This document shows, piece by piece, positions 27,066-46,618 of a stretch of DNA of 64,000 nt. The stretch lies in the NCBI RefSeq assembly GCF_011320115.1, contig NZ_JAANOZ010000001.1:1-64000 (forward strand), written 5' to 3'. Source of the DNA: Croceibacterium segetis (GTDB lineage Bacteria; Pseudomonadota; Alphaproteobacteria; Sphingomonadales; Sphingomonadaceae). A program made the position numbers and the translations under genes. A model generated the notes under the pieces. It was not told where the DNA came from and ran no database searches. It worked only from the letters and a program-made list of their open reading frames with translations. How positions within the stretch are numbered: position 1 is the first letter of the stretch; every line of letters begins with the position of its first letter.

Positions 27066-27340
27066 AGGCGGCGCGCATCATCCTCTTTGCCTGGGCCGCG
27101 CTGCTCGCGCTACTGGCCCTGACAGTGGCCGCCAGCTTCGCGCCGCTTGGGAAAGCGCTGCCGTTCGTGTCTTACGGTATCGCCATGGCTAAGACGGCGA
27201 TCGTCGCCTGGATATTCATGGAGCTAAGGGTCCGCGAGGGACTGCAGCGGCTCGCGCTCGCTGCAGGCTTCGTGTGGCTGGCGATCCTCTTCGTGCTGCT
27301 GTTCGCCGACAACCTGACGCGCGGCTGGCTAGGACGATAG
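27062..27340 (+). CDS. Cytochrome c oxidase subunit IV-like small membrane protein
   Basis: This 92-residue protein has three helices, with A-K-T-A-I-V-A-W-I-F-M-E-L in the middle, matching the prokaryotic subunit IV family (caa3 type). It overlaps coxC by ATGA and is the last gene of the operon. Its end overlaps the convergent HAD gene by 12 bases. No terminator hairpin is apparent. Confidence 0.85.
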   Translation: MKAARIILFAWAALLALLALTVAASFAPLGKALPFVSYGIAMAKTAIVAWIFMELRVREGLQRLALAAGFVWLAILFVLLFADNLTRGWLGR

Positions 27341-28165
27341 CCATCCGCCTTGGAGCAGCTCGCCGACGTTTTCGATCACCAGGTCCGGCCGCCGTTCGCG
27401 GCCTTGCGCGGCCCATTGTTCGCGGTTGGTCGTGCCGCTGGCGACGCCTACGCCGATGGCCCCGCCGGCGACGGCCATTTCGATCTCAACCTTGGGATCG
27501 TCGCCGATCACCGCGATGTCGCTGGCGGGCAGGCCGAGCCGGGCGGCGACGAAGTCCATTGCCAATTGGCTCGGCTTGCCGGTGACCTGCGGCTCGACCC
27601 CGGTTACGCGGTGGATGGCGCCGTTGATGGCGCACGAATAGCCGAAAGCCGGGCCTTCTTTGGTGGCGAAGAACGGTACGTCGGAGGCGGTGTAGAAGGG
27701 CGCGCCGTCGAGCACGCGGCCGGCGGCGGCGTGGATGTCTGCCATCGAGCATTCGGGATGCCAGGCGGTATAGACCGCGTCGGCGCTGGCCGCGTCCGGG
27801 TCGCCTGGTTGGGTGCAGCGAATGCCGTGACCTTCGAGCGCCTCGACCACGCCGGGTGTGCCGAGCACCAGCACGTTCCGGTAGCCGCGCTCGGCGAAGA
27901 CCTTGCCGGCGACCGAGTTGGGGGTGAACAGGTGCCCGTCGATGATGGGCAGTCCGACCTCGCGCAGCCGGGGGCCTTGCTTCGAAGCTGAATAAGCGCT
28001 GCCGTTGGTCAGCGCGAGGTATGGGATGCCGCGCCGTTCGAGCTCGTTCAGGACCTCGACCGCGCCAGGAATGACCTCGTAGCTGCCGAGCTTGCGGTTC
28101 GACAGGATCAGCGTCCCGTCGAGGTCGAACATGAAGCCCTTGGGGGCTTTGGCGGGAGCGTTCAC
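27329..28165 (-). CDS. HAD-family phosphatase, NagD-like
   Basis: This 278-residue protein starts at a GTG overlapping the carboxyltransferase stop. Motif I is F-D-L-D-G-T-L, with the nucleophile and acid Asp residues. A Lys in V-T-G-K-P-S-Q and I-G-D-D-P-K-V-E-I form motifs III and IV. The large cap domain between them matches NagD/p-nitrophenyl phosphatase-type (C2 cap) enzymes. As the fifth gene of the split PEP-synthase cassette it could remove phosphate from a phosphorylated intermediate. A HAD phosphatase also accompanies phenylphosphate carboxylase in anaerobic phenol degraders. The substrate is unknown. Confidence 0.85.
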   Translation of the reverse strand: MNAPAKAPKGFMFDLDGTLILSNRKLGSYEVIPGAVEVLNELERRGIPYLALTNGSAYSASKQGPRLREVGLPIIDGHLFTPNSVAGKVFAERGYRNVLVLGTPGVVEALEGHGIRCTQPGDPDAASADAVYTAWHPECSMADIHAAAGRVLDGAPFYTASDVPFFATKEGPAFGYSCAINGAIHRVTGVEPQVTGKPSQLAMDFVAARLGLPASDIAVIGDDPKVEIEMAVAGGAIGVGVASGTTNREQWAAQGRERRPDLVIENVGELLQGGWLSS

Positions 28166-29625
28166 CGGGCCGCGAGCTCCAGCTTAAAGTCGTCCTTCTC
28201 CAGTTGCAGCTCGGTCACGTCGGTCCTTTTCAAGAGGTCGCGCAGCAGGTTCATCAGCGCCACGGTCGAAGGGTCGTACTCGCGGGGCGCGGGCCCTTTG
28301 GCCTTCATCGCGTCGATCATTTCGGCCGGCATCGTCGCGCGCAGGAGGAATTCCTCGTCGGACAGGTTCTTGCCGATGCGCTTCCTGAGGTCGGACAATT
28401 CGGCCATGCCCGGCTCGGCCTGCAGCTCTTTCGTCCGCGGATTGGCCATGATCCTGTCCATGACCTCATGGGCGATCGGCACGTTGGGCCGGCCGAACTT
28501 GCCGAGCGCGTAGCGAATGATCTCGTCGGGGATCACCGCGTAGCGCTCCTTGCCGGTGACGTTGAGCACCGCCTGGGTCTGCAGCATCTGCGCGAACGGG
28601 GTCATCACGATCGGCCAACCGAGCTCTTCGCGCACCTGGCCCATTTCCTCGATCACCTTGCCTTCGAGCTCCGGCACGCCGTGGTCGGCGAGGTGGCGGC
28701 GCATCGTCCCGACCATTCCGCCGGGGAGCTGGTGGCGCAAGTAGGCGGCGTCGAAGTGCATCGGCTTGCCCATCGGCAGCCCCTCAGCCTCGGCGAGCGC
28801 GGTGAAGTATTCGGCGACTTCGCGCGCGGCGTCCTCGTCGATGTCGACCGTGTGGCCCATCGCCTTGAGGTTGGCGATCATCCGGGTGATCGGCGGATTG
28901 CTGGTGCCGTCGGCCGCCCCGCCGCTGGCGCATTGCACGGCGGCGACGCCGAGGTCGGCGGCTTCGAGGCACGCCGGTTCGGCAAGGCCGATCGTGCAGT
29001 GGTTGTGCAGCTCGAGCGGCTTGTCGCCGATCTCGGCGAGGATCGCCGGGATCAGCGTCTGCGCGCGCTTGGGCGTGAGCAGGCCGCCCGGGTCCTTGAT
29101 GTAGAGCGCATCGACGTCGTGGCTTGCGGCCAGCGTGCGGGCGGCTGCGGCATAGTGCGCGTCGTCGTGGATCGGGCTGATCGAGTAAACGAGTGCCCCA
29201 ATGACCTGTTCGCCACCGGCACGCTTAACCAATTTGGCAACTTCGACATTGGAAGCGGCATCGTTGGTCGGGTCGGCGAGCGCGAAGCGGCGGATGCCGT
29301 TGGTCGCCAGCGTGCGGAAGGCGAGCTCCATGAACTCAGGCGAAGCGGTCTCCCACGCGATGAAGCGGAAGCCGGTGGAGAGGAATTGCAGTGGCGTGTT
29401 GCGGCAGATCTGGCCCATCGCGCGGATCCGCTCCCACGGGTCCTCCTGCTTGTAGCGGACCGCCACGCCCATGTGGGTGCTGGTGGTGAAATCGATCGCA
29501 CGATAGCCGACGCGCTCCATCAGCGGGGCGACGGTCAGCGTCTTGGCGGTATCGACCCCCAGCGCCCCCCACAGGCACTGGTTGCCGTCGCGCAAGGAGG
29601 TTTCGACGATCTGGAGCGTGGCCAT
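28162..29625 (-). CDS. Biotin-dependent carboxyltransferase, pyruvate carboxylase B/oxaloacetate decarboxylase alpha-like
   Basis: This 487-residue TIM-barrel protein begins with E-T-S-L-R-D-G-N-Q-C-L-W-G, the metal-binding start of HMGL-like carboxyltransferases. K-D-P-G-G-L-L-T-P holds the Lys carbamylated in this family, and L-H-N-H-C-T-I-G-L-A holds the metal-binding histidines. The classical versions are R-D-x-x-Q-S and H-x-H-D-T-S-G, so this is a divergent branch. The C-terminal part resembles the PycB conserved domain. It starts one base after the biotin carrier stop. It would move CO2 between biotin and an acceptor; the acceptor is not evident. Confidence 0.88.
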   Translation of the reverse strand: MATLQIVETSLRDGNQCLWGALGVDTAKTLTVAPLMERVGYRAIDFTTSTHMGVAVRYKQEDPWERIRAMGQICRNTPLQFLSTGFRFIAWETASPEFMELAFRTLATNGIRRFALADPTNDAASNVEVAKLVKRAGGEQVIGALVYSISPIHDDAHYAAAARTLAASHDVDALYIKDPGGLLTPKRAQTLIPAILAEIGDKPLELHNHCTIGLAEPACLEAADLGVAAVQCASGGAADGTSNPPITRMIANLKAMGHTVDIDEDAAREVAEYFTALAEAEGLPMGKPMHFDAAYLRHQLPGGMVGTMRRHLADHGVPELEGKVIEEMGQVREELGWPIVMTPFAQMLQTQAVLNVTGKERYAVIPDEIIRYALGKFGRPNVPIAHEVMDRIMANPRTKELQAEPGMAELSDLRKRIGKNLSDEEFLLRATMPAEMIDAMKAKGPAPREYDPSTVALMNLLRDLLKRTDVTELQLEKDDFKLELAAR

Positions 29626-29626
29626 G

Positions 29627-30091
29627 CTAGCGCACCTTGACCCGGATCAGCGCCTGGCCTTCCTCGACCGCGCTGCCGTTCGGCGTGAGCAGCGCGACGA
29701 CCGTGCCGGCCACTCCCGCGCGGATCGGGTTCATGAGCTTCATCACCTCGATGATGCCGATCACCGTTTCCTCGGTCACCGCGTCGCCCGGTTGGACGAA
29801 CGGCGGATCGCCGGGGCGCGGGGCTTCGTAGAAGTTGCCAAGCAGCGGCGCGGGCACATCGACCTCGCCCGCGCGCGCGGCGCCCGCTTCCTGGCCGAGC
29901 GGCATCGGCTCGGGCGCGGGGGAGGGCGTCTCGGCGATCTCGTCCTCTTCGTCATGGTAACGGGGCGCCCAGCTGCCACCCTCGCGGCGAATGCGCAGCT
30001 TCAGGCCGCCGGTCTCGAGCTTGAGGTCGGTGAAGTGGCTTTCGTCGAGCAGCCGGGCGATTTCGGCGATGTCGGCGGCCGTCAGGCTCAC
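29627..30091 (-). CDS. Biotin carboxyl carrier protein (AccB-like)
   Basis: This 154-residue protein has an N-terminal helical part, a Pro/Glu/Ala-rich hinge (about 55-80) and a C-terminal biotinyl domain with E-V-M-K-L-M-N, whose Lys is biotinylated. The GTG start overlaps the stop of the PPDK-like gene (GTGA). It is a second-copy type carrier located away from any accC gene. It probably serves the adjacent carboxyltransferase and must be charged by a biotin carboxylase encoded elsewhere. Confidence 0.9.
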   Translation of the reverse strand: MSLTAADIAEIARLLDESHFTDLKLETGGLKLRIRREGGSWAPRYHDEEDEIAETPSPAPEPMPLGQEAGAARAGEVDVPAPLLGNFYEAPRPGDPPFVQPGDAVTEETVIGIIEVMKLMNPIRAGVAGTVVALLTPNGSAVEEGQALIRVKVR

Positions 30092-31125
30092 TTCTTGCCC
30101 CCGAAGATGCTCATCACGTGCTTGAGCGGGTTATCCTCGGGCGGCTTGACTGGGGCCAGCGCATCCTTGGTCGCCCACACGGTCTCGGGGCGCGATTGCA
30201 GAAGCAGCAAGTTGCCCGCCTTGTCGATCGCCCACTCGATGTCCTGCGGCTTGCCATAGTGCCGCTCGACCTTGCGGCCGACTTCGCGCAGCGCCAGCAG
30301 TTCCTCGTCGCTGAGGCAAGGCTGCGAGCGCTCGGCGCCGGACAACTCGACTTCCTTGATCCCCCCGCCTTCGGCCGGGACCTGCTTGGCGTGCTTGTCG
30401 GAAATGTCCCGCACGCTGATCTCGCCGGTGATCTTGCCCACGACCCAGCGGTCGGGCGTGACTTCGCCCGAGACGACCGCGCTACCGAGCCCCGGCGCGC
30501 CTTCGATGGTGATCACCGACTTGTCGCCGGTCGTCGGGCTGCGCGTGAACATAACCCCCGCGCAGCGCGCGTCGACCATCGCCTGGATCACCACCGCCAT
30601 CGCCACCCCGTCCTCGGGGAAATCCTGCTTGCGGCGGTAGGTCATGGATTCGACCGAATAGAGGCTGCCCCAGCACTCGCGCACCTTGGTGACCATGTCG
30701 GCGCCGGTGAGGACCCACAGGAAGGTGTCCTGCAAGCCGGCGAAGCTGGCGTCCTCGGCATCTTCGGTGGTCGCGCTCGAGCGGACCGCGACGGGCGTCA
30801 CGCCATCTGTAAGCTCGGCGTGCGCGGAAAGGATCGCCCGCTCGACTTCGGCCGGCATCGGTTCCTCGATGACCCGACGGCGCAGTTCCTCGGAGAGCTT
30901 GGTCGCCGCGCCGAGATCGTTCGGATCGAGCGCGGTGACCTTCTCGCGCACCGGCGCCCGCGCCTCGATCGCTTCGAGAAAGGTCTCGAACGCGCTGGTC
31001 GTCACGACAAACCCGGGCGGCACCGCAATGCCCGCCTGGGTCAGCTCACCGAGCGAGCCGCCCTTGCCGCCGACGGTCGGTCGGTCGGCGATGCCGACAT
31101 CCTTGAACCAGGCGACCGCGCTCAT
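30088..31125 (-). CDS. PEP synthase ATP-binding-domain protein, phenylphosphate synthase beta-like
   Basis: This 345-residue protein matches only the N-terminal ATP-grasp domain of PEP synthase/pyruvate phosphate dikinase. V-G-G-K-G-G-S-L-G-E-L lies near the start, V-R-S-S-A-T-T-E-D-A and F-A-G-L-Q-D-T-F in the middle, and D-I-E-W-A-I-D with L-L-L-Q-S-R-P-E-T at the end. The phosphohistidine and PEP-binding domains are absent and are partly supplied by the adjacent upstream gene. The same split is known for phenylphosphate synthase of Thauera, where this subunit uses ATP to phosphorylate the partner. The ATG overlaps the partner's stop. Confidence 0.9.
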   Translation of the reverse strand: MSAVAWFKDVGIADRPTVGGKGGSLGELTQAGIAVPPGFVVTTSAFETFLEAIEARAPVREKVTALDPNDLGAATKLSEELRRRVIEEPMPAEVERAILSAHAELTDGVTPVAVRSSATTEDAEDASFAGLQDTFLWVLTGADMVTKVRECWGSLYSVESMTYRRKQDFPEDGVAMAVVIQAMVDARCAGVMFTRSPTTGDKSVITIEGAPGLGSAVVSGEVTPDRWVVGKITGEISVRDISDKHAKQVPAEGGGIKEVELSGAERSQPCLSDEELLALREVGRKVERHYGKPQDIEWAIDKAGNLLLLQSRPETVWATKDALAPVKPPEDNPLKHVMSIFGGKK

Positions 31126-32969
31126 GCGTCTTCCAGGACCGGCTCATCCTGAAGGATCGTGACGATCCCGCGTCCGCCATCGACGCGGATGCGCTGGCCG
31201 TCCTTGATCTTCGTCGTTGCGCTGCCGGTCCCGACCACGGCGGGGAGGCCGTATTCGCGCGCGACGATGGCCATGTGGCTCATCGACCCGCCGATATCGC
31301 TGACCGCGGCGCCGATCTTCTGGAAGATCGGGCTCCAGGTCGGGTTGGTCACCTGGCAGACGAGGATATCGCCCTGCTGGATGCGGCCGATCTCGGCGAC
31401 CGACTTGACCACCCGGGCCACGCCTTCAACCACGCCGTTGCAAGCGGCAAAGCCTTTCAATTCGTTGGGGTTGGCGTCGGAGCCCTCGTTAAGCCAGGAA
31501 TCGAGGTTTTCGCGGGTGATGCCCCACAGCATCACGATCGCCGGATCATCGATCACATCGGGTACCGCGCCCAATGCGGGCGAGGTGGTGTGCTTGCCCC
31601 ATTCCTCGATCGCCGCCTTGCGCTGGGCGACGATCGCCGGCCAGTGCTGCGGGCCGCGCGGGGTCGCGCCGACGCCCCAGCCGAGCATCAGGTCGATGAT
31701 CGCGCTCTCGAGCTCGTACTGCGTGAGGTGGAAAACGTCGTCCTCCTTGCCCTCGGGGCCAAAGAAGTCATTCTTCGCGAGCAAGGCACCGAACTCCCTG
31801 ATCTTGTTGAAGAACAGGTTCGTGTACCAGTGCTCGCAGTAGAATTTGTGGCCCTCGACGTATGGGAACACGCGGTGGGCGAGGCCGATCAGCTGGTCGT
31901 AAGTCGCCCGATCTTCGTCGGTGTCGAGCAGTTCTCGATAGTCGCTGACCAGCTGGTTGCGTTCCTCGATCAGCTGCGCGGTCGGGCGCTCGATATTGGC
32001 GCCGGCCTTGATCTTCTCGATATAGCCGGGGAGCGCCGCGAACGGCAGCGAGAGGTCGTCGTTCCAGCTGCGGTGATAGTGGTAGAAGCCGTCACCCGAG
32101 CTGACGTTGAACCACGGATTGCGGCTGGTTTCTAGCTCGCCGAGCCATTCCTTGCCCGCGTTGCTGACCTTGTCGAGATCGGCCAGCACCTGGTCGATGT
32201 TCATGTTGTCAGTAAAATGCTGGTCGACGCCCAGTTCGACGGCGCGGCGGGCGAGCCGCTTCACTTCCTCGTCGGGGCGGAAGATCTCGGCTTCCATCCC
32301 CGCGACCATCCGGCTGATCGCTTGGTCGCTGATCTCCGGGAAGGCCTTCTTGCAGAAATCGAAGAAGGTCATGTACGCGCCGTAGCCGAGCAGCAGGAAC
32401 TCGAAGTGGTGGTGCCACATCCGGTGGTACCCTTCGACCTGCTTCTGGTAGATATCGAGCAGCGCGTGGTTCGATGCGACGCCCTTGCCGGTGTGGGTCG
32501 TCTCGATCGGTTCGTAGTCGGGCAACTCGGGCTTGGGCAGCGCCTGCGCATCGGCGATCAGCGCCTTCATCTTGACCTTCCACTGGTCGTAGAGCCGTTC
32601 CCAGTGCTCGTAGTAGTAGAAGGCGCGCTGCTGGAACTGCTCGACGCGCTCGGCGATCTCCTTGGGGTCGGTCACCGCCACGCCGCCGATGTAGACGCGG
32701 CCGTTGATCACCCGGTGGTCGATACCCTTGGCGGTCGGCAGCACGTGGACGCGGGTGTTGAACGCGCCCAGCGCCACGTACGCGGCCTCGGCCGTGATCA
32801 TATCGAAATGATGCATCGGCTCGGGGAAGTGCATCGAGTTGTAAAACCAGAACTTCTGGTCATCCTCGGGCACGAACTGGGTGTAATAAGGGTAAGCCGC
32901 CTGCGCGGCCTCGGTGCCCGGGACGACCTTCAGGTCGCTCGGTAGCGGAAAAGACTTCTGTTCGCTCAT
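31122..32969 (-). CDS. PEP-utilising phosphohistidine protein, phenylphosphate synthase alpha-like
   Basis: This 615-residue protein carries the swivelling phosphohistidine domain at its C-terminus: G-G-S-M-S-H-M-A-I-V-A-R-E-Y-G with His565 as the phosphate carrier, then V-D-G-G-R-G-I-V. Residues 1-500 resemble no standard PEP synthase domain; they are rich in Tyr, Trp and His (W-H-H-H-F-E-F, Y-H-Y-H-R-S-W) and may bind the substrate. The size and split match the alpha subunit of phenylphosphate synthase. It is the first gene of the five-gene cassette and starts behind a foldable leader. The natural substrate is unknown; phenol-like or enolisable ketone compounds are possible. Confidence 0.87.
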   Translation of the reverse strand: MSEQKSFPLPSDLKVVPGTEAAQAAYPYYTQFVPEDDQKFWFYNSMHFPEPMHHFDMITAEAAYVALGAFNTRVHVLPTAKGIDHRVINGRVYIGGVAVTDPKEIAERVEQFQQRAFYYYEHWERLYDQWKVKMKALIADAQALPKPELPDYEPIETTHTGKGVASNHALLDIYQKQVEGYHRMWHHHFEFLLLGYGAYMTFFDFCKKAFPEISDQAISRMVAGMEAEIFRPDEEVKRLARRAVELGVDQHFTDNMNIDQVLADLDKVSNAGKEWLGELETSRNPWFNVSSGDGFYHYHRSWNDDLSLPFAALPGYIEKIKAGANIERPTAQLIEERNQLVSDYRELLDTDEDRATYDQLIGLAHRVFPYVEGHKFYCEHWYTNLFFNKIREFGALLAKNDFFGPEGKEDDVFHLTQYELESAIIDLMLGWGVGATPRGPQHWPAIVAQRKAAIEEWGKHTTSPALGAVPDVIDDPAIVMLWGITRENLDSWLNEGSDANPNELKGFAACNGVVEGVARVVKSVAEIGRIQQGDILVCQVTNPTWSPIFQKIGAAVSDIGGSMSHMAIVAREYGLPAVVGTGSATTKIKDGQRIRVDGGRGIVTILQDEPVLEDA

Positions 32970-33044
32970 CGGTAGGGCAACCTCTCCACGAAGCCCCGCG
33001 CCTTTGTGGCATCGTCAGGGGGACTCCTCATGTGTGGAGAGGTT
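32968..33044 (-). promoter_or_regulatory. Structured leader that can hide the ribosome binding site
   Basis: An 11-base perfect inverted repeat, AACCTCTCCAC at 32979-32989 and GTGGAGAGGTT at 33034-33044, lies just before the start of the cassette. On the transcribed strand the arm next to the gene contains GGAGAGG, the only good ribosome site for the ATG at 32969. The distal arm contains its complement. Inside the stem a weaker second pairing (GAGTCCCC with GGGGCTTC) and GCC/GGC can extend the structure. This is the layout of a translational switch or RNA thermometer; the ligand or signal is not known. Confidence 0.55.
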
Positions 33045-33092
33045 ACGCCTCTGCGCCTCACTCGGGCAAGGATTCACGCGCATCGCCAACAG

Positions 33093-33116
33093 GACAAAAG
33101 CGCAGGAGCTTTTGTC
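33093..33116 (-). terminator. Hairpin downstream of the exported-protein gene
   Basis: A perfect 9-base stem, GACAAAAGC and GCTTTTGTC, with a 6-base loop lies 25 bases beyond the stop of the minus-strand gene ending at 33141. The stem is AT-rich, and the T-run lies inside the stem rather than after it, so it is a weak intrinsic terminator. On the opposite strand the stem is followed by TTGTTTC, which fits better, but no + gene reads into it. It separates the exported protein from the downstream cassette. Confidence 0.45.
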
Positions 33117-33140
33117 TTGTTTCTCCAGGTTGTCCTGGCC

Positions 33141-33641
33141 TCAGCCGAGCGGGTTCTTGTCCCCGCAGTCGGAATAAACCTTGGCGATCGCCTCGCGTGC
33201 GCCGGCGACGTCGAACTTGGTGTTGTAGATGCTGTGCTCGATCGGCTTGAGCCGCACCTCGACGGTCTTGGCGTCGGCCAACTGCTCGAGCAGCCGGCTC
33301 AGCGAACGGGTGTTGCCCTGGTCGACCGCCATCGCGAACTTGTCGTTGAAGCGCCAGTTGTCGTCCCAGGTTGGCTTGTCATCCATCCGCAGGGTGACGG
33401 GGAAGCTTTCGTACTGGTTGCTCGGCAGCGGCCGTGCCTGGTTGGTGGTGGCGACGACGACCGCGAAGACCTGCTTTTTGCCCGGTTTGTCGCACTTGAT
33501 CAGAAGCTGCGAGCCATCGGCCGCCTGCACCCCTGCGCCCGAGGCCTGGCCCGGTCCGCCGAAGAAACCCCACGCCGAATTCTGCGCGCCCGCACCCACC
33601 GACATGGCCGCCACGGCGACGCCAAACACCCAATAACGCAT
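33141..33641 (-). CDS. Exported protein of unknown function
   Basis: The ATG at 33641 has GGGAGTGG upstream and gives 166 residues with a clear signal peptide (M-R-Y-W-V-F-G-V-A-V-A-A-M-S-V-G-A-G-A-Q). The mature part has two cysteines (I-K-C-D and S-D-C-G-D) that could form a disulfide. I do not recognise the family. The strands pattern (V-F-A-V-V-V-A-T-T, F-P-V-T-L-R-M-D-D, V-E-V-R-L-K-P-I-E-H) suggests a small beta-rich periplasmic protein. Confidence 0.8.
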   Translation of the reverse strand: MRYWVFGVAVAAMSVGAGAQNSAWGFFGGPGQASGAGVQAADGSQLLIKCDKPGKKQVFAVVVATTNQARPLPSNQYESFPVTLRMDDKPTWDDNWRFNDKFAMAVDQGNTRSLSRLLEQLADAKTVEVRLKPIEHSIYNTKFDVAGAREAIAKVYSDCGDKNPLG

Positions 33642-33705
33642 GTGAATCCACTCCCGCTGACTCATCTCGGGCGATACCGTAACCCGTTGTCCCGCCGTCG
33701 GCAAA

Positions 33706-34680
33706 TCAGGATTGGGGCGCATGCCCGGCGCGCCATTCGCGCGGCGTGATGCCGAAGCGCTTGCGGAACAGCCGGGTGAAGTAGCCCGCATCGAGGAACC
33801 CCGCGCGAAAGGCGATCTCGGACACCGGCAAGCCGTCGGCGCGCGGGTCGGAGAGCAGGTCGCTCGCCCGGTCGAGCCGCGTGGCGTTCAATTCCTGAAC
33901 GAAGCTGGTGCCGCTGCCGGCGAGCAGGGTCTGGAGGTACCGCTTGGAAATGCCGATCTTGCCGGCGACCACCTCGGGCGACAGCTCGGGGTCCGCGTAG
34001 CCGCTTTCGATCCGGCGGAGGATCTGCCGCGCGAGCTGACCGCGGTGTCGGCTGCTTTCGGCTGGCTCGTGGAAGCCCGTAGCGAGGCCGAGCAGGTGGC
34101 CCACTTGTTCGGCGATCAGCGGGCGCGGCAGCGGCGCGTCATCTAGGCTCGTCAGCATGGTCTCAAGCAAGGCGCCGAGTGGCGCGCCCCAACCTTGCCG
34201 AGCCTCGATCGGCCGCGCGAGCAGCGCCTCGGGGTCGGGCAGGTACTTCTCGAGCCAGCCTTGCGGCATCATCAGGTCGAGCGCCTCGTGTTCGGTGTCC
34301 ATTTCCATCTGGTAGAAGCGGGTGTTGTCGAGCAGCACGAACTGGCCCGGCTCGACCGTGAAGCGCTTGCCGCCCATCAGTGTCTTGAGCGTGCCGCGCC
34401 GGGCATAGACCAGCTGGATCGACGGCGCCGCGCGCCCGCTCGAGCCTTCCGCTCCCGTATGCGTCACTCGCTGCGCCGGGGCGTGCAGCTGGAGCATCCT
34501 CAGTTGGCCGATGCCGTGGCTGGCCCAGCGCGCGGCGAAGCTGTTCGGGTCGAACACAGTGACCTCGATCGGCGCGATCGTGCTCGCCGCCCACTCGCGC
34601 CACTCGCGCAAGGCCTCACGCTTGCCGAGGCCGGCGGAGGTCCAGCTGGCATCTTCCGGCGCGGGGGCGGGCTTGGGCAT
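33706..34680 (-). CDS. AraC/XylS-type transcription regulator
   Basis: This protein of about 324 residues has an N-terminal beta-barrel-like sensor region of the AraC-binding-like type (about 40-200) and a C-terminal double helix-turn-helix (about 215-315). The signature block is S-E-I-A-F-R-A-G-F-L-D-A-G-Y-F-T-R-L-F-R-K-R-F-G. It resembles XylS/FeaR-like activators that respond to aromatic or amine compounds. It is divergent from the VOC/AraC/amidohydrolase group and may control it. The frame continues upstream to 34779, but the ATG at 34680 gives a cleaner N-terminus. Confidence 0.87.
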   Translation of the reverse strand: MPKPAPAPEDASWTSAGLGKREALREWREWAASTIAPIEVTVFDPNSFAARWASHGIGQLRMLQLHAPAQRVTHTGAEGSSGRAAPSIQLVYARRGTLKTLMGGKRFTVEPGQFVLLDNTRFYQMEMDTEHEALDLMMPQGWLEKYLPDPEALLARPIEARQGWGAPLGALLETMLTSLDDAPLPRPLIAEQVGHLLGLATGFHEPAESSRHRGQLARQILRRIESGYADPELSPEVVAGKIGISKRYLQTLLAGSGTSFVQELNATRLDRASDLLSDPRADGLPVSEIAFRAGFLDAGYFTRLFRKRFGITPREWRAGHAPQS

Positions 34681-34823
34681 GGCGTGCAAGGGTAGGCCGC
34701 CCCTCAAGTGGCGGCAAGCTTGGGCGTTTGGCGCCTGTGCGACACAATTTGCCATTCCTGCGATAGCGCGTCTCGCCACCGGGCGGTATTGTCACCTCCT
34801 CAACTCTCCGGGGGAGACAAAGC

Positions 34824-46529: not shown

Positions 46530-46618
46530 CCGTTCGGCCTGAGCTTGTCGAAGGCCTGCTTTTCTATCATGCGGCGCGTAAGCGAAGGACGCTCCTTCGA
46601 CAAGCTCGGGGCGAACGG
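46530..46618. repeat. Inverted repeat with 25-base arms between murI and plsY
   Basis: Arm one (46530-46554) begins CCGTTCGGCCTGAGCTTGTC and arm two (46594-46618) is its reverse complement with about two mismatches. About 39 bases separate them. The core GAGCTTGTCGAAGG is the common sphingomonad intergenic repeat motif. It sits in the divergent promoter region of murI and plsY, 15 bases from the murI start, so it could affect either gene. Confidence 0.75.

Follow-up and report, generated by a model that had tools for sequence, protein, structure and literature searches.

We consider it rather probable that the five-gene cassette studied here is driven by an activator-dependent promoter, that the perfect inverted repeat in front of it arose by chance, and that a hairpin in its leader protects the 5' end of the mRNA and/or insulates the ribosome site. 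The window, that is, the whole 64,000-nucleotide stretch of DNA that was analysed, is thereby given an operator and a candidate activator for what would be a cassette for lignin-derived aromatic ketones, together with a conserved leader hairpin whose role is putative. The analysis also corrects a tempting misreading, namely that a perfect repeat over a ribosome site must be a regulatory stem, since such a repeat can reflect chance complementarity with a -10 element.

Cassette genes

The cassette consists of five genes on the minus strand with overlaps or a 1-nt gap at their junctions, in agreement with the first-pass annotation of this DNA, which had called it a five-gene unit.

31122..32969, minus strand: gene 1, PEP-utilising mobile (phosphohistidine) domain protein of 615 aa (PF00391)
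30088..31125, minus strand: gene 2, PPDK_N ATP-binding subunit of 345 aa, HpeI/AcvB-like (PF01326)
29627..30091, minus strand: gene 3, biotin carboxyl carrier protein of 154 aa (PF00364)
28162..29625, minus strand: gene 4, carboxyltransferase (HMGL-like and PYC_OADA) of 487 aa (PF00682, PF02436)
27329..28165, minus strand: gene 5, HAD-IIA phosphatase of 278 aa, HpeD/AcvF-like (PF13344, PF13242)

Hydroxyphenylethanone operons, hpeHICBAD and acvABCDEF, from Rhodococcus rhodochrous GD02 and Sphingobium SYK-6 (acetovanillone) are described in the accessible portion of PMC9618137, which also places two putative regulators upstream of the GD02 cluster. No more than putative regulators are named beside such operons in the accessible portions of PMC9618137 and PMC13101465. 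The product of gene 1, for which NCBIfam gives just "hypothetical protein", appears to be like the alpha subunit of the hydroxyphenylethanone kinases (HpeH/AcvA), a name taken from gene order and from what is accessible of PMC9618137. The cassette is probably an acv/hpe-like set for the degradation of aromatic ketones from plant- or lignin-derived aromatics.

No biotin carboxylase gene is present in the cassette, where genes 3 and 4 lie 1 nt apart (junction 29625-29627). Three Biotin_carb_C loci were found in the same genome, all outside the cassette, and the cassette enzyme may therefore borrow a housekeeping biotin carboxylase subunit. In one orthologous locus (L013, 9627-10988) the carrier gene is separated from the carboxyltransferase gene by an open reading frame of 453 aa that is biotin carboxylase-like by eye, and a similar-sized gap exists at this junction in several other loci.

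Operator, predicted -10 element and predicted transcription start

Orthologous loci were collected by protein search, 80 at first and more added afterwards, and they provided 92 distinct upstream regions. Of these, 90 were scored with a position weight matrix trained on 34 orthologous sites, the two regions shorter than 200 nt being left out. The following features were placed between the cassette and its regulator gene.

33069..33104, minus strand: tandem operator of 36 nt, TGCGCTTTTGTCCTGTTGGCGATGCGCGTGAATCCT, with two direct repeats TGCGC-N5-TCCT whose starts are 22 nt apart (position weight matrix)
33088..33121, minus strand: inverted repeat overlapping operator half-site 1, AACAAGACAAAAGC / GCTTTTGTCCTGTT (repeat search; fold -15.5 kcal/mol, z -3.06)
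33040..33045, minus strand: predicted promoter -10 element TAACCT, overlapping the far arm of the inverted repeat discussed below (TA spacing after the operator)
33033, minus strand: predicted transcription start, to within about 3 nt on either side (from the -10 position)
33706..34779, minus strand: AraC-family regulator, candidate activator of the operator (PF12833, PF14525)

The operator, with the consensus TGCGCTTTTGTCCTATTnnnCnTGCGCGnGAATCCT across orthologues, scored 27-57 in 49 of the 90 regions; the remaining 41 scored below 5, and the maximum among 60 shuffled regions was -4.3. The leader analyses reported below cover the 49 operator-bearing regions, the other 41 of the 90 being left out. 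A TA dinucleotide is found 21-24 nt downstream of the operator in all 49, against a background of 6.5%. Conservation by position in the 49 aligned regions was high in both repeats, modest in the -10 element, and weak but visible in an AGACAAA stretch upstream. It is this comparison of orthologous sequences that establishes the operator and the spacing of the -10 element.

The genome itself contains a single exact match to the operator and one match with three mismatches, and an operator regulon within the genome was rejected on these counts. Of the 38 closest loci, 35 have a similar AraC-family gene upstream, in the same orientation. As for the three closest loci without it, L031 shows no such gene in the fetched flank and has the operator, L041 has neither, and for L040 the upstream DNA is just 54 nt long. 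One of 22 more distant loci (L053) has both the operator and an AraC gene (56% identity); the others have no operator, and their AraC matches, where present, are at 24-40% identity, some of the flanks being short. The best NCBIfam match of the AraC-family protein in the window is FeaR (NF007243), at 104.9 bits, which is below the cut-off of 199. From the co-occurrence of operator and AraC gene, the -10 spacing and the single site in the genome, we infer that an AraC-type activator acts at a site of its own. The adjacent protein (33706-34779) would bind the tandem repeat at 33069-33104, the inducing signal probably being an aromatic ketone or a metabolite of it. TAACCT (33045-33040) would serve RNA polymerase as the -10 element, with a start near 33033.

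A generic sigma-70 scan gave no promoter-like sites in 32900-33900, which is compatible with an activator-dependent promoter and is no proof of one. A consensus-type sigma-70 promoter or a terminator was likewise rejected, with no promoters and one terminator-like site (1.0 expected), located elsewhere. In the repeat at 33088..33121 the 3' arm is operator half-site 1, and the upstream AGACAAA mirrors the first repeat. This element is possibly an extra (third) inverted half-site in the DNA, or possibly a hairpin lying at the end of upstream transcripts; no terminator-like site was scored at these positions. Between the AraC gene and the operator there is also a predicted protein of 216 aa (33141-33791, minus strand), which has no Pfam or NCBIfam match and a relative only in L016 (51%) among 60 loci. 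Neither the operator nor the leader was found described in the accessible portions of PMC9618137, PMC13101465 and PMC12167813, the literature being partly accessible.

Inverted repeat over the ribosome site

The inverted repeat before the cassette is exact over 11 bases, with 44 nt between the arms.

32979..32989, minus strand: near arm, GTGGAGAGGTT, with the ribosome site GGAGAGG at 32987-32981 (sequence, repeat search, folds)
33034..33044, minus strand: far arm, AACCTCTCCAC, overlapping the predicted -10 element (repeat search, stem comparison, folds)

The first-pass annotation had described a perfect 11-base repeat 1 to 75 nt upstream of gene 1, with GGAGAGG in the near arm and its complement in the far arm. 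The exactness and the complementarity were both confirmed over the 11 bases, and the position is corrected to 10-75 nt from the start codon (32969), the ribosome site being 12 nt before that codon. A full-length fold that includes both arms has an energy of -42.8 kcal/mol (z -3.49), with none of 200 shuffles equally stable, and such a repeat arises in 2 of 5000 shuffles of 32955-33060. Across the 64-kb window, we found eight distinct perfect repeats with arms of 11 bases or more, spaced 3-60 nt apart; five shuffled versions of the window gave 6, 3, 3, 5 and 1, so that one such repeat somewhere in the window needs no explaining. A longer perfect inverted repeat (14 bases, short spacing) is present elsewhere in the window, at 46541-46610. 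The possibility of a dispersed repeat was rejected, the leader's sole full match in its own genome being itself and the 11 other matches being short.

The functional proposal attached to the repeat was that its long 11-bp stem masks the ribosome site until a ligand, a protein or heat opens it. Whether this can happen depends on where transcription starts. With starts at 33044-33060, the exact complementarity gives the long stem a pairing probability of at least 0.98 and the ribosome site an opening cost of 14-20 kcal/mol; with a start at or downstream of 33037, folding gives the long stem a pairing probability of 0.04 or less. The far arm (33044-33034) is made up of five bases of the -10 element and the six bases that precede the predicted start at about 33033. 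Because it precedes that start, the masking stem is probably outside the transcript, and the far arm is most likely promoter DNA rather than RNA. The start as placed from the -10 element thus falls inside the proposed hairpin, a position that counts against the proposal to the extent that the placement holds.

Comparison of the 49 leaders points in the same direction. In Watson-Crick pairing of the -10 stretch with the ribosome site, the window reaches a stem of 11 bp at most, L009 one of 8 bp, and L012 and L091 one of 7 bp each. In the other 48 leaders, pairing of the far arm with the ribosome site has a mean of 4.19 bp, against 3.98 bp in a swap control in which far arms were exchanged, and the long stem is not conserved because these relatives pair no better than the control. 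Its loss in relatives is established by this comparison; compensatory changes in homologous leaders were found for the inner hairpin described below, which does not include the ribosome site. With the predicted starts, the median cost of opening the ribosome site is 2.7 kcal/mol in the 49 leaders, only one of which reaches 8 kcal/mol or more, and at none of these sites does pairing with the upstream leader exceed one half. The ribosome site of the window would pair instead with the first codons (0.98), its opening costing 4.8 kcal/mol from the predicted start.

The absence, with predicted starts, of any ribosome site paired mainly with its leader speaks against control of translation through the long stem. 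What survives of the foldable leader that was said to mask the ribosome site is the structured leader; the proposed stem does not, its far arm being upstream of the predicted start and its pairing being present in 1 of 49 leaders. Rfam gave no match at gathering score in the window and one sub-threshold chance match (E 4.2) on the other strand, which bears out the earlier remark that the leader resembles no riboswitch that can be named. A known riboswitch or RNA thermometer was rejected, with no Rfam match and with a masking stem that is neither conserved nor, by the predicted start, transcribed. Despite the exact complementarity and the high opening cost from upstream starts, we regard a ligand-, protein- or heat-opened masking stem as highly improbable.

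The same stem could be used in another way, as a read-through silencer specific to this species. Transcripts arriving from upstream would include the far arm, which would mask the ribosome site; those from the cassette's own promoter would lack it, and translation would take place only when that promoter fires. The upstream genes do share the orientation of the cassette, the scan scored no terminator-like site between them and it, and the long stem is highly sensitive to where transcription starts. Against this, the long complementarity is missing in the other 48 leaders, and because of its absence there we see no sign of selection for the long stem, so that the silencer appears very unlikely to us. 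Judged from the sequences compared, the inverted repeat is probably a coincidence of the promoter -10 element and the ribosome site.

Conserved leader hairpin

Folding found a hairpin between the two arms, where further short pairings had correctly been noted at first pass.

32990..33027, minus strand: conserved leader hairpin (folds; compensatory changes in orthologues)
33027-33020/32997-32990, minus strand: outer stem of the hairpin, followed by a 6-nt one-sided bulge
G33013-C32998, minus strand: lone pair, with the bulged A33012
33011-33008/33002-32999, minus strand: inner stem, with the loop ACAAA at 33007-33003

The hairpin begins about 6 nt after the predicted start and stops two nucleotides before GGAGAGG. 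Leaders taken from the predicted start to the ribosome site fold more strongly than their shuffles, with a mean z of -1.79 for the 33 short leaders and -4.14 for the 16 longer ones; by sequence clusters, the mean z was -2.14 (27 clusters) and -1.66 (19 short-leader clusters). The window's own hairpin has a stability like that of shuffles (z -0.6 to -0.8), and when the near arm is included an alternative fold is slightly better than the hairpin.

Of the 33 short leaders, 21 repeat the pattern of inner stem, lone pair, bulged A and A-rich loop, with clear compensatory changes; these 21 were annotated by hand and chosen for fit, and the other 12 are outside the pattern. In the 21 leaders, all 105 annotated pairs (four inner pairs plus the lone one in each) are standard, and the inner stem occurs in 11 different sequences. 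The two pairs next to the bulge are standard in 21 of 21, the maximum with shuffled partners being 17 and 18, and the bulged nucleotide is A in 20. Alignments were made from 17 and 16 of the 21 annotated short leaders and from nine of ten longer leaders. In the 17-row alignment, based on sequence only, 92.9% of cells were paired compared with 74.2% in shuffles, with rows picked for fit and cells not independent. The covariation score of the inner hairpin in the 17 rows was 0.500 versus 0.134 shuffled, falling to 0.09 or less when the partner was slid, and the covariation, which this comparison establishes, holds with the window removed. Pairs changed on both sides in the 17 rows numbered 3 versus 2.0 in shuffles (82/500), not above expectation. 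Row selection and shared ancestry weaken all of these comparison numbers.

A covariance model built without the window ranked the window leader first in its own genome, narrowly, at 25.4 bits (E 0.035), the runner-up (24.7 bits, E 0.049) falling within what looks like the coding sequence of a response regulator. In 59 related genomes, seven of which carry the cassette, all five matches of the full model at 30 bits or more were at the cassette leader; four weaker matches had 25-27 bits (E 0.08-0.15).

We picture a leader of about 65 nt that would fold into the hairpin 32990-33027 at the 5' end of the mRNA. The hairpin most likely would shield the 5' end from decay and/or keep the ribosome site free, rather than act as a translation off-switch, and translation would proceed from a free GGAGAGG. 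Conservation of the bulged A, the lone pair and the loop would point to a role more specific than that of a simple protective stem.

Other leader architectures

Ten loci (L019, L021, L023, L024, L026, L027, L030, L032, L035 and L046) have a leader that is about 70 nt longer and differently structured. It contains a conserved GGCUYGGAGAGGAGCC hairpin with GGAGAG in the loop, a sequence that resembles the ribosome site (less clearly so in L035), and then a long hairpin that has one bulged A. The ten longer leaders have 29 predicted pairs, 8 of them with two-sided changes. In the nine that were aligned, 96.6% of cells were paired compared with 90.6% in shuffles, and further pair types numbered 16 versus 17.0 shuffled, not above. 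In 298 family genomes the longer-leader model found two places, both of them cassette leaders and both among the sequences from which it was built. In 23 other sources it also found the L035 leader, which is not in the model, at 37.4 bits, together with one chance-level match. In two further loci, L012 and L096, the leader hairpin is interrupted by a long palindromic insert, CGTCATTGCGAGCG...CGCAATGACG, flanked on either side by stem-forming sequence, which amounts to a natural insertion experiment.

A single leader architecture across the clade was therefore not kept, 21 of 33 short leaders fitting and ten long ones differing. Structure is retained and its shape varies, which is easier to reconcile with a protective or insulating role than with a strict ligand pocket; conservation of the bulge and the loop may leave room for a specific role.

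Such a specific role would make the inner hairpin a cis-regulatory RNA in which bulged A, lone pair and A-rich loop are recognised by a protein or small molecule that alters translation or decay of the cassette mRNA. The consistently standard pairs over 11 distinct inner stems, the almost invariant bulged A, the location of all five stronger matches at the cassette leader, and the other covarying leader that ten loci hold in the equivalent place all agree with it. The pattern, however, is missing in 12 of 33 short leaders, the 21 others having been picked for fit; L012 and L096 carry the long palindromic insert instead; and the shape varies between clades, with no Rfam match. We find this reading unlikely, if worth keeping in mind. 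A broader proposal is that the leader is a structured RNA of an undescribed kind that exists in two or more architectures, the short hairpin and the longer form with a GGAGAG loop and a bulged A, which would sense a pathway metabolite or bind a protein and so add a post-transcriptional layer over the AraC-type promoter. This we regard as doubtful and put forward as speculation. A hairpin that protects the 5' end and/or insulates the ribosome site remains our preferred reading.

Comparison with known systems

The cassette shares with the hpe/acv operons the order of a two-subunit PEP-synthase-like kinase, a biotin carrier, a carboxyltransferase and a HAD phosphatase, as judged from its Pfam domains and the gene list in the accessible portion of PMC9618137. 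It differs from them in being without a biotin carboxylase gene, and the likeness is one of domains and gene order, not of protein alignment.

The promoter is like AraC/XylS-family activated catabolic promoters in its tandem direct repeats near -35, the adjacent AraC-family gene and the aromatic catabolic operon that it would serve. Its own repeat is TGCGC-N5-TCCT with 22-nt spacing, and it is likened to these promoters by class features rather than by alignment to a characterised operator.

In RNA thermometers and translational riboswitches a stem masks the ribosome site, and the long stem of the window could do so if the far arm were transcribed. It differs from them in that the stem is not conserved and is probably untranscribed, and in having no Rfam match. 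The ompA-type stabilisers of 5' untranslated regions have a stem-loop close to the 5' end; the stem-loop of the window is likewise near the predicted 5' end and upstream of a mostly free ribosome site. It differs from them in the approximately 6 unpaired nucleotides that, from the predicted start, would precede the stem, and in its conserved bulged A and loop.
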